Source: Prochlorococcus sp. MIT 1341 (GTDB taxonomy: Bacteria > Cyanobacteriota > Cyanobacteriia > PCC-6307 > Cyanobiaceae). From it: a stretch of DNA of 64,000 nucleotides. Positions 22,499 through 24,937 of the stretch are shown here, in pieces. The stretch lies in assembly GCF_034092415.1 (NCBI RefSeq), contig NZ_CP139304.1, positions 186,001 to 250,000 on the forward strand. The letters are read 5' to 3'. The position numbers and the translations under genes are program-made. Position 1 is the stretch's first letter. Each line of letters begins with the position of its first letter. The notes under the pieces are model-generated. The model saw only the letters and a program-made list of their open reading frames with translations. It did not search any database and was not told where the DNA came from.

Positions 22499-22543
22499 TG
22501 GGGGGAGAAGGGAGATTTGAACCCCCGATCTTCGGGTTATGAG
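22499..22543 (-). repeat. tRNA-fMet 3' remnant A (att-like)
   Basis: The sequence GAGATTTGAACCCCCGATCT plus TCGGGTTATGAG repeats the T-arm and anticodon 3' side of the intact tRNA-fMet with a few substitutions. The start is degraded (GGGGGGAGAAGGGAG instead of TGGCGGGGGGGAG). Identity ends at the anticodon loop, after which a TCTCGCTT...AAGCGAGA inverted repeat follows. It is the most diverged and leftmost copy, so probably the oldest. Confidence 0.75.
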
Positions 22544-22804
22544 TCTCGCTTATATTTCTCAAAAGCGAGATATAGCTTAGATTTCAGAGCACTCTACACG
22601 TTTCTGTATGCATTTATTATTCCCTTGGGACTTTCGATCAGAACTCTAGTTACTTGATATAAACAAGTCATACCAGCTAATTACTTCGATATTTTACGTT
22701 TTTATAATTCTTGAATTATTACAAAGATATTTTTACTTAATTCCCTTCTTAAATATTTTTATGTACATGGACTTTCGAAGTTGGTTTCTTATTTTGTACC
22801 TATA

Positions 22805-22945
22805 TTTACCCTGTGCAGGGCGTCCACAGTGGACTCCCAAGTTGCTAGTTGAGGTCTTTACGGGTATTCGGGTTCCAACCCGATGCCCGCTGTTCACATT
22901 GCTGTGCAAAGTGCAACTGCAACCCCCGTAAACACTGGGCAAGAA
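22805..22945. other. GC-rich structured segment, possible RNA or recombination site
   Basis: This stretch is far richer in G+C than its surroundings. It is packed with inverted repeats: CCCTG/CAGGG (22810-22820), GTCCAC/GTGGAC (22822-22834), TCGGGTT/AACCCGA (22868-22883) inside a longer imperfect stem, and TTTACGGG (22857-22864) with CCCGTAAA (22925-22932). The CGGG at 22861 can pair with either CCCG at 22886 or CCCG at 22925, so two exclusive folds are possible. TGCAA is repeated nearby. A minus-strand ORF runs through it but has no protein-like character. It matches no RNA family that I recognise. Confidence 0.35.
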
Positions 22946-22996
22946 TCAGAACCTGTTCCCCTTGCAATATCCTCGTAATACTAGTCAAAGACATAA

Positions 22997-23023
22997 AAAA
23001 TGCCAGTCATAGACTGGCATTTT
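22997..23023 (-). terminator. terminator hairpin of tRNA remnant B
   Basis: Perfect stem AAAATGCCAGTC / GACTGGCATTTT with loop ATA, immediately left of remnant B and in the same relative place as the terminator of the intact tRNA-fMet. The stem sequence differs from that of the intact gene (GCCTGTC). Confidence 0.65.
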
Positions 23024-23026
23024 AGT

Positions 23027-23071
23027 TGGTGGCGGGGGGGAGATTTAAACTCCCGATCTTCGGGTTATGAG
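23027..23071 (-). repeat. tRNA-fMet 3' remnant B (att-like)
   Basis: Forty-five bases matching the intact gene from the encoded CCA (TGG on the + strand) through GGCGGGGGGGAGATTTAAAC and TCCCGATCTTCGGGTTATGAG. Only two substitutions are visible (TTTAAAC for TTTGAAC, GATCTT for GACCTT). Similarity stops after the anticodon triplet. Confidence 0.85.
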
Positions 23072-23370
23072 TATTGCACTATTTAACCTAACCTACTTGG
23101 TATGACTTAGTTTTTATTTGAATGGTACACATTAAGGTCGATAGGACAAGAAGTATATCGAAGGTAGTAATACCAGTCGATTACAGGGAATTTCCTGATA
23201 CCAATATTTTCCTTCTTATTTATACGTAACAACCCATCTTGCATTCTTATTTGTGCCAACACCCGCTAAAATATACCAGCAAAATGAATTCGAAAGAGAC
23301 CAGATGCGACACAGGCTTCAGCCGCTCAGAAGTAACACTAAAAATTAGAAGACAAAGTTACGCCTCTGCC

Positions 23371-23450
23371 ACCGTTTACAGAATAAGTTCCGTTCATACT
23401 TTGCTTCCCTTCGTTGTTGCAAGGATTGAAGAGACCGTTTACAGATTAAG
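23371..23450 (+). repeat. 17-base direct repeat pair
   Basis: ACCGTTTACAGAATAAG at 23371-23387 and ACCGTTTACAGATTAAG at 23434-23450 differ at one base and lie 63 bases apart, in non-coding DNA between remnant B and the methyltransferase pseudogene. No further copy was seen. Confidence 0.5.
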
Positions 23451-23613
23451 GAGTGACTTGATTTACGGTTATAAATAAGGGTTCATATATAATTGCAGAT
23501 CTTCTATCAGTCTCTGCTTTTAGGTCCATATCCAAGTGTAACGATTTCTTGATATTCTACTTTTTTATACACTAATGTTGGATTTCTAGTTAAAAATAGA
23601 GGTTTTTAACGAG

Positions 23614-24362
23614 ATGATTGATTTAAAGAATATAATCAATAAGGTTAATACAAATATAATTGTCTTAAAAGAATTCATTGCTAGTAGCACCTCGATAAAT
23701 GTAATTTTGAAATTTTACTTATCAAAATATACACAAAAGAAGAATGTAAAAGTATATTCAGGTGAAATAGCAAAATTTCGACACCAAATTTCTAAATTAA
23801 ATATTAGTACTGACTGGTTTACTCCAAATATTCCTTATTGGATTACAACTTTTGATGCATTAGGATTATCTCGTCAAGGGTCAATAAAATGCTTAGAAAT
23901 AGGCTCATGGGAGGGCTTATCAACAGTTTTTTTCTTAGCCATTTTCCTCATGCTACAATAACATGTGTTGATACATGGGAATGGAATAGTGATGATAATA
24001 AATTTGATCTTCAGGTAATTGAAAGTAATTTCAATAAAAATACTTATCCATTTCATGAAAGAATTACTAAATTCAAGGGAACCTCCTACTCCTATTTTGA
24101 GAGCAATCAGCAAAGGAATTACTTTGACCTAATCTATATTGATGGTTCTTATGTTCCAGACGATCTAATAATTGATGCCTTTAAGTCTTTTCAGGCATTG
24201 GCCATAGGTGGTCTTATGATATTCGAATACTATATTTGGATTGACGGTCGCCCGCCAAAAGACAGACCAATAGAAGCTATCAACTCTTTCTTAAGTATAA
24301 AAAAAGGTTGCTATAAAATAGTTCAAGTTTACTCTCAGTTAATTATACAAAAAATAAAATAA
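23614..24362 (+). pseudogene. SAM-dependent methyltransferase interrupted by a frameshift at a T7 tract
   Basis: Two overlapping frames together make one class I methyltransferase of about 250 residues (Methyltransf_24-like). The first frame gives motif I in KCLEIGSWEGLSTVFFL. The second continues it with SHFPHATITCVDTWEW (acidic strand 2), then FDLIYIDGSYVPDDLIIDAF and ALAIGGLMIFEYYIW. They join at TTTTTTT (23927-23933): one extra T, or two fewer, restores a single frame. The gene may be inactive, expressed by slippage at the homopolymer, or hit by a sequencing error. It is the only recognisable protein gene inside the island and may have been cargo. Confidence 0.7.
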
Positions 24363-24448
24363 ACTTAATTCAAATTCATCCCCTTTGGTTTGTTGTTGGG
24401 TTAGTTATAAATCTCTTAGGGCTAGTCCTCTTGACATCGGATCCGGAT

Positions 24449-24492
24449 TGGTGGCGGGGGGAGATTTGAACTCCCGACCTTCGGGTTATTAG
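24449..24492 (-). repeat. tRNA-fMet 3' remnant C (att-like)
   Basis: TGGTGGCGGGGGGAGATTTG through AACTCCCGACCTTCGGGTTATTAG repeats the intact tRNA-fMet almost perfectly, with one G fewer in the G-run and TTATTAG for TTATGAG, so the anticodon position is mutated. It is the closest copy to the intact gene and the least diverged. Unlike A and B, it has no terminator hairpin immediately to its left. Confidence 0.85.
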
Positions 24493-24937
24493 GGTTACAC
24501 TATTTCCTTAAAAGCCCTGCTATAGCTTGATTCCTGATTGCGTTATACACCATTCTATACATATCCCATGAATCATGATTGATGGCTATACAACTCAGTA
24601 GTACCAAGCACTAATTAGGTTATTATTCTGTCCCTATAGCCTAATTCCATTATCAAAAGTTAGATTTAACTCACCGCTCAATAGTTATTAAAGATTTAAA
24701 TATATTTCCCTTAAATAATATTTTATTAGCTTAATTACACACCTTGCCAATTTTTACTCTCTTTTGGACACTTGGATTGTTTGATGTAGGGTTTTTGGTT
24801 GTCAAGTTTTGTATAGGTTAGCAAGATATGATCAATTTGAAAAACCTATAAATAGTTGTTATGAGAAGGTTTTGAAGACTTTATCTTTACTTGCTAGTAG
24901 CGTAGTCTGATAGGAATCATGTAATTATTCTTGGGCG

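Follow-up and report, generated by a model that had tools for sequence, protein, structure and literature searches.

Integration scars at a tRNA-Met gene of Prochlorococcus sp. MIT 1341, including a relic of a T7-like cyanophage attachment region

In the genome of Prochlorococcus sp. MIT 1341, an initial annotation of a 64,000-nucleotide stretch (hereafter the window) had located three partial copies of tRNA-Met, named A, B and C, whose flanking sequences also appeared to be related. Two explanations had been offered, namely that the segments come from one element family with a conserved recombination arm of about 150 bases, or that all three are tRNA copies of full length which have decayed and taken up insertions. 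What, then, produced this row of tRNA fragments, and what are the sequences beside them?

Displaced tRNA-Met 3' halves beside the intact gene

The coordinates given for A, B and C proved correct. Their homology to tRNA-Met begins at the acceptor end, takes in the whole 7-nt anticodon loop and stops exactly after TTATGAG or TTATTAG. In A, B and the intact tRNA-Met, the 3' half carries a terminator hairpin at its 3' end; in C this hairpin has been lost.

22499..22543, minus strand: remnant A, displaced tRNA-Met 3' half, ending after the anticodon loop TTATGAG
23027..23071, minus strand: remnant B, displaced tRNA-Met 3' half
24449..24492, minus strand: remnant C, displaced tRNA-Met 3' half, loop TTATTAG, terminator gone
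25146..25222, minus strand: intact tRNA-Met (CAT), the attB hotspot (ARAGORN and Rfam)

A model of the 3' half plus arm was run on 400 genomes, in which remnants scored ~57 bits or more and matched to model position 79-86, and intact tRNAs scored ~54 bits or less with the match ending near 48-50. The tRNA-Met 3' half with an identical breakpoint was found in many picocyanobacteria. In all 27 remnants from ~20 genomes (A, B, C and 24 others), the breakpoint lies after the 7-nt anticodon loop, so that the displaced 3' halves have one fixed breakpoint at the crossover. Inverted core half-sites flank this 7-bp overlap, being perfect in some arms (CTTCGGG-TTATGAG-CCCGAAG, as in L130), near-perfect in others, and degenerate in A, B and C.

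Palindromes of the form TCGGG-N5..9-CCCGA, in which the anticodon stem of tRNA-Met is copied and the loop is different, were observed at 24938-24979 and 22868-22882, as well as in L054 (6112), L033 (6191), L031 (5230-5275) and L055 (769 and 5424); in several elements, they lie 145-210 bp past the 3' end of a 3' half. In addition, ARAGORN detected two intact tRNA-Met genes in G110 (L055 5610-5686 and 7440-7516), 1.8 kb apart with a glycosyltransferase in between, and two loci of G259 (L140 1273 and 2684) match intact tRNA-Met with a spacing of 1.4 kb.

The region 22499-25222 is very probably an array of integration scars at tRNA-Met, left by successive integrations of which at least one was by a T7-like phage. 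As judged from the anatomy and from established knowledge of tRNA-targeted integrases, an element would enter at the anticodon loop and displace the old 3' half: a tyrosine integrase would exchange strands within the 7-bp loop, the incoming element would supply its own tRNA 3' half and terminator, leaving the tRNA intact, and the old 3' half would be pushed away as a remnant. Because the incoming element displaces the old 3' half, the sequence to the right of a remnant would be the P' arm of the displacing element, comprising half a core site, a site near +24 and tandem repeats near +48. Repeated rounds would yield the row A, B, C and tRNA, with A presumably displaced first and C last, and the 3' half of the intact tRNA-Met (25146-25190), together with its terminator, would derive from the last-arrived element. 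Later decay would have removed element interiors, and element 3 would have lost everything between its P' arm and its integrase stub. The three elements delimited in this manner are as follows.

22544..23071: element 3 (528 bp), with P' arm, integrase stub, P arm, terminator and 3' half B, interior deleted
23072..24492: element 2 (1421 bp), with P' arm, RNA polymerase stub, broken methyltransferase gene and 3' half C
23614-24362: broken methyltransferase gene (Methyltransf_24), in element 2
24493..25190: element 1 (698 bp), with P' arm, the palindromes at 24938-24979, P arm, terminator and intact tRNA 3' half

Element 1 is gene-free. No recombinase gene was found in elements 1 and 2, and the integrase beside attP in the window is a stub only, in element 3. 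A search of the window's genome for an intact mobile integrase gene found none, the only hits being a hemH-adjacent recombinase and a fragment at G000:C1:563720-563863. The hemH-adjacent recombinase (L061 9105-10271) is distant kin of the phage integrases at tRNA-Met (27% over 220 residues), and genes like it were found in most relatives searched.

Arm sites and the pairing of element ends

The P' arms of the 27 remnants share a TTGGTATGACTGG-like site near +24 after the loop. The sites of the three arms in the window, together with the repeats discussed below, are listed here.

22566..22579, plus strand: +23 arm site of A, CGAGATATAGCTTA (motif search)
23096..23109, plus strand: +25 arm site of B, CTTGGTATGACTTA (motif search)
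24516..24529, plus strand: +24 arm site of C, CCTGCTATAGCTTG (motif search)
22666..22675, minus strand: inverted copy of TGGTATGACT in arm A, exact
23166..23175, minus strand: inverted copy of TGGTATGACT in arm B, TGGTATTACT, one mismatch
22592..22611, plus strand: putative 12-bp tandem arm-type repeat of A, CTCTACACGTTTCTGTATGC (read from sequence; group test)
24542..24565, plus strand: putative 12-bp tandem arm-type repeat of C, GTTATACACCATTCTATACATATC (read from sequence; group test)
24987..25009, plus strand: tandem repeat in the P arm of element 1, AGTGTACACAAAACTGTACACAG

A motif search without positional constraint recovered a single 14-mer, present at positions +23 to +25 of 12 of the 13 arms, with an information content of 11.9 bits compared to 9.9 bits for the best of 25 shuffles. 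When 14 held-out remnants, not used for building the motif, were scanned across the whole arm, the best match lay at +24/+25 in 12 of them and the second best match lay there in one more. A fixed hairpin at the +24 site was also considered and discarded because folds vary from arm to arm.

Pairwise alignment against shuffled sequence separates the three arms of the window. Over the first 160 nt, arms A and C reach a local score of 41 (shuffle mean 22.5, sd 3.9), which is matched by only 3 of 2000 shuffles; the block that had been noticed in both of them (TATAGCTT) is the +24 site, and the accompanying TACAC...TCTGTATG/TCTATAC words are the 12-bp tandem repeat. In contrast, A-B and B-C alone are no better than shuffled sequence (965 and 700 of 2000 shuffles, respectively, reach the score). 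The shared words become non-chance once the arms of relatives join the motif search, and the best B-C alignment falls in register (+2 to +62), though its score equals the shuffled level. Arm B compared with the arm of G002 gave a z of 26, and homology between arm A and the arm of the viral contig L172 was not significant. As for the TACCA block proposed for all three arms, the inverted TGGTATGACT copy is exact in A and has one mismatch in B, but its counterpart in C is not significant.

Most arms contain a tandem repeat near +48 with a period of 12 (lag-12 match 0.371; other lags 0.23-0.32). Each element has its own repeat word, and this word is found again in the opposite (P) arm of that element, 125-185 bp ahead of the next 3' half; words common to both arms include GTGTGCCTGG (G004), ACTGTACAAAAA (G232), AGTTGACAT (G390) and CTACCACACC (MIT9313). 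Among 19 elements, which as a set have arm-type repeats common to both arms, the repeats at +42..80 match the P arm of their own element above those of others, with the observed sum reached in 0 of 20000 pair permutations; the three control windows gave 330, 11424 and 17614 of 20000, the windows having been picked after inspection and whole arms giving a permutation p of only 0.036. Held-out arm pairs agree with this result, namely those of G304 (ends on two contigs, score 17.8) and G215 (ends 65 kb apart, score 11.8). Pairing is weak for the elements of the window taken singly (scores 7.2, 5.8 and 7.2 versus row medians of 5.8, 5.0 and 5.6), and the TACAC common to the C arm and the element 1 P-arm repeat is a single pair that is weak by itself.

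Chromosomal P' arms match the P arm preceding the next 3' half and not that of the same remnant (Wilcoxon p 0.01), whereas those of viral contigs match the P arm that belongs to their own core (rank 2/720), as attL/attR versus free attP predicts. Because of their repetition, pairing and place, the tandem repeats are best read as putative arm-type binding sites of each element's own integrase, which may bind the +24 site as well. An element at tRNA-Pro (L145, G322 contig 121) with recombinase and Prim-Pol genes was observed to carry in its arm TTGGTATGACAGGG and CTATAGCTT, words that also occur in tRNA-Met arms.

Viral attachment sites and the T7-like relic around remnant B

The attachment anatomy, with its paired arms, recurs in unrelated genomes, and the core and arm-site pattern was found as free attP in seven viral contigs. 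In all six readable contigs, a gene for a divergent tyrosine recombinase (E 1e-36 to 1e-66 with a profile of relatives) begins on the P side at a distance of 154-323 bp from the loop; the seventh contig, with 1.1 kb of sequence only, was left out of this count. An integrase gene also adjoins attP in P-SS2, G422 and G215, and in the latter two a related recombinase gene lies inside the tRNA-Met element (449 aa in an element of 14.7 kb and 509 aa in one of 65 kb, respectively). Pfam and solved-structure searches assigned no family to the G422 integrase, and its peptide patterns had no match among the viral sequences searched. For the MIT 0701 integrase, the close relatives in genome contigs were itself and a fragment in G143; the MIT 0701 element was dropped as a candidate parent since the element ends do not pair.

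Cargo at tRNA-Met elsewhere includes Nif11 peptides and Y1 transposases (MIT9313), glycosyltransferases (G002 and G110), a cadherin/lectin protein (G183), and, in G312 (L133 1640-4042), a restriction-modification-like set of an HNH nuclease, a D12 DNA methyltransferase and an unnamed protein. The MIT9313 region 900000-918000 (L126) holds four consecutive elements with Nif11-type peptide precursors and Y1 transposases, and a DUF1651-type protein adjoins three of the P' arms of this array. In G215, the 65 kb between matched arms at 1141940-1206690 (L138/L057) contain genes for a recombinase, an excisionase-like HTH protein, a lysozyme and a DnaB-like helicase, and this segment is probably a prophage-like element.

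The initial observation is partly confirmed, and its shared-attachment-arm reading is supported in outline by the relatives, the matched opposite arms and the free attP beside an integrase gene in viral contigs. Conservation applies to the architecture, with its core, +24 site and tandem repeats, more than to a sequence of 150 bases, and this architecture does not belong to one element family but is used by several kinds of element (siphovirus, T7-like podoviruses and cargo elements).

Two broken genes flank remnant B.

22718..22857, minus strand: remains of the 5' end of an integrase gene, covering codons 5-51 with a broken frame and lying in the P arm of element 3 (tblastn 1e-4 and collinear place; DNA alignment)
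23253..23454, plus strand: remains of the 5' end of a T7-type RNA polymerase gene, covering residues 1-68 (~60% identical, frame broken; tblastn 1.1e-14)

The segment 22712-23449 is collinear with the attP region of the T7-like cyanophage contig L172 (65.5% over 737 bp, E 1e-72), in the order integrase stub, P arm, remnant B, P' arm and T7-type RNA polymerase stub; the polymerase stub, which thus stands beside int/attP over the collinear 737 bp, was recovered again in a search of 121 genomes. Sequence comparison identifies B and both of its flanks as descendants of the attP region of a T7-like cyanophage. The RNA polymerase of L172 is 66-69% identical to T7-like cyanophage polymerases, and ORF reading indicates that this contig also encodes DNA polymerase-like and primase/helicase-like proteins. 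A second such contig, L177, encodes terminase-like and TalC-like proteins (ORF reading), followed by integrase, attP and polymerase residues 1-16. The structural and replication genes of a T7-like prophage are absent from elements 2 and 3 (1.4 and 0.5 kb), which therefore represent a relic and not a prophage. As both arms at B are of a single phage type, a tandem integration of two related T7-like elements is probable, in which the P arm of element 3 and the P' arm of element 2 came together at B. Full-length T7-type RNA polymerase genes, 26-42% identical to that of L172, were also observed in chromosome assemblies of eight picocyanobacteria (L181-L188).

Alternative readings and known systems

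Chance similarity between AT-rich stretches has a negligible probability: the A-B and B-C arms alone do equal shuffled scores, but the A-C shuffles, the motif-position and held-out tests and the z of 26 between B and the G002 arm refute it. It is also highly improbable that the three remnants are complete tRNA-Met copies, with 5' halves that have decayed or been interrupted by insertions. Arms A and C hold CTCTACAC and TTATACACC, which loosely resemble CTCTACCCC of the tRNA 5' half; however, shuffled arms match the 5' half equally well (475, 647 and 887 of 1000), and this test together with the breakpoint common to the 27 remnants rules out a decayed 5' half. Moreover, the arm has its own conserved site, which is present in viral contigs.

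Other alternatives accept the arms and concern the nature of the elements. All three might be decayed tycheposons (Prochlorococcus cargo transposons) and not phages, for which we see a limited possibility: tRNA-Met is among the seven tycheposon sites given in the accessible text of PMC10872708, cargo at tRNA-Met includes Nif11 precursors, glycosyltransferases and a restriction-methylation-like set, and element 2 has a methyltransferase, but the surroundings of B are those of a T7-like attP, polymerase stub included. We consider it unlikely that the arms-only mini-elements (339-698 bp; in G001, G004, NATL2A and the window) have been moved in trans by the integrases of visiting phages, like MITEs or CIMEs. 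Several independent elements do retain the core and both arms and nothing else, and the mini-element of G004/G167 is ~85% identical over its aligned part compared to 72% for the neighbouring ansA gene; yet the elements were found via their cores, so the survival of core-adjacent arms is a biased sample, and in situ deletion explains the arms-only state; G167 looks as if the stretch from the repeats of one arm to those of the other had been deleted. An equally speculative extension would be a cassette system, in which any DNA between matched arms could be inserted or moved by integrases of passing cyanophages and satellites, and phage integrases, T7-like ones included, would build picocyanobacterial genomic islands.

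To our knowledge, no isolate of Prochlorococcus or Synechococcus has yielded an intact prophage. Integration of T7-like cyanophages has been described as transient and confined to tRNA-Leu. The chromosomal relic of integrase stub, attP and polymerase stub indicates that T7-like integration was once inherited, at another tRNA. With its matched, element-specific repeats, the arm anatomy provides a means of recognising free, integrated and decayed elements and of pairing element ends across contigs, whereby island growth at tRNA genes becomes testable.

The tRNA-Met site is an already known P-SS2/tycheposon hotspot. As described in the accessible text of PMC2784084, the attP of P-SS2 corresponds to tRNA-Met beside ansA in MIT9313, with a 53-bp identity and several pseudo-tRNA-Met copies; arms do not figure in that account. 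The tRNA, the neighbouring gene ansA and the breakpoint are the same as in the window, and the P-SS2 integrase is related (25% over 97%), with the same integrase-attP arrangement as in the viral contigs. In the P-SS2 attP, the core reads CTTCGGG-TTATGAG-CCCGAAT and the arm position is occupied by a CAGTGAGTCACTG dyad, and an MIT9313 remnant at ~912,283-912,312, the place reported in the accessible text of PMC2784084, carries the P-SS2 arm. P-SS2 is a siphovirus of MIT9313, whereas the relic in the window is T7-like.

Tycheposons measure 4-200 kb and use seven tRNA sites including tRNA-Met, according to the accessible text of PMC10872708. They resemble the present system in the tRNA-Met site, a tyrosine recombinase, cargo genes and island growth beside a tRNA, but the elements of the window are of 0.5-1.4 kb and without a recombinase gene of their own. 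Rows of displaced gene 3' ends from repeated site-specific integration also characterize CIMEs and accretion arrays, such as the ssrA islands of Dehalococcoides, which differ from the window in integrases, sites and hosts; we know of no phage stub in those islands.

Among T7-like cyanophages with an integrase (P-SSP7 and S-TIP37), published attP sites are all in tRNA-Leu and stable lysogens have not been found (PMC8776855), and a relic at tRNA-Met was therefore unexpected. These phages, like L172 and the window, have int and attP beside the RNA polymerase gene. Unlike them, L172, L177 and the window have attP in tRNA-Met, the two contigs encode a P-SS2-like integrase of ~450 aa, and the window keeps a chromosomal relic. 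Within the literature covered, three things appear to be new, namely the attachment anatomy, the pairing of element ends by means of it and the presence of a T7-like relic at tRNA-Met.
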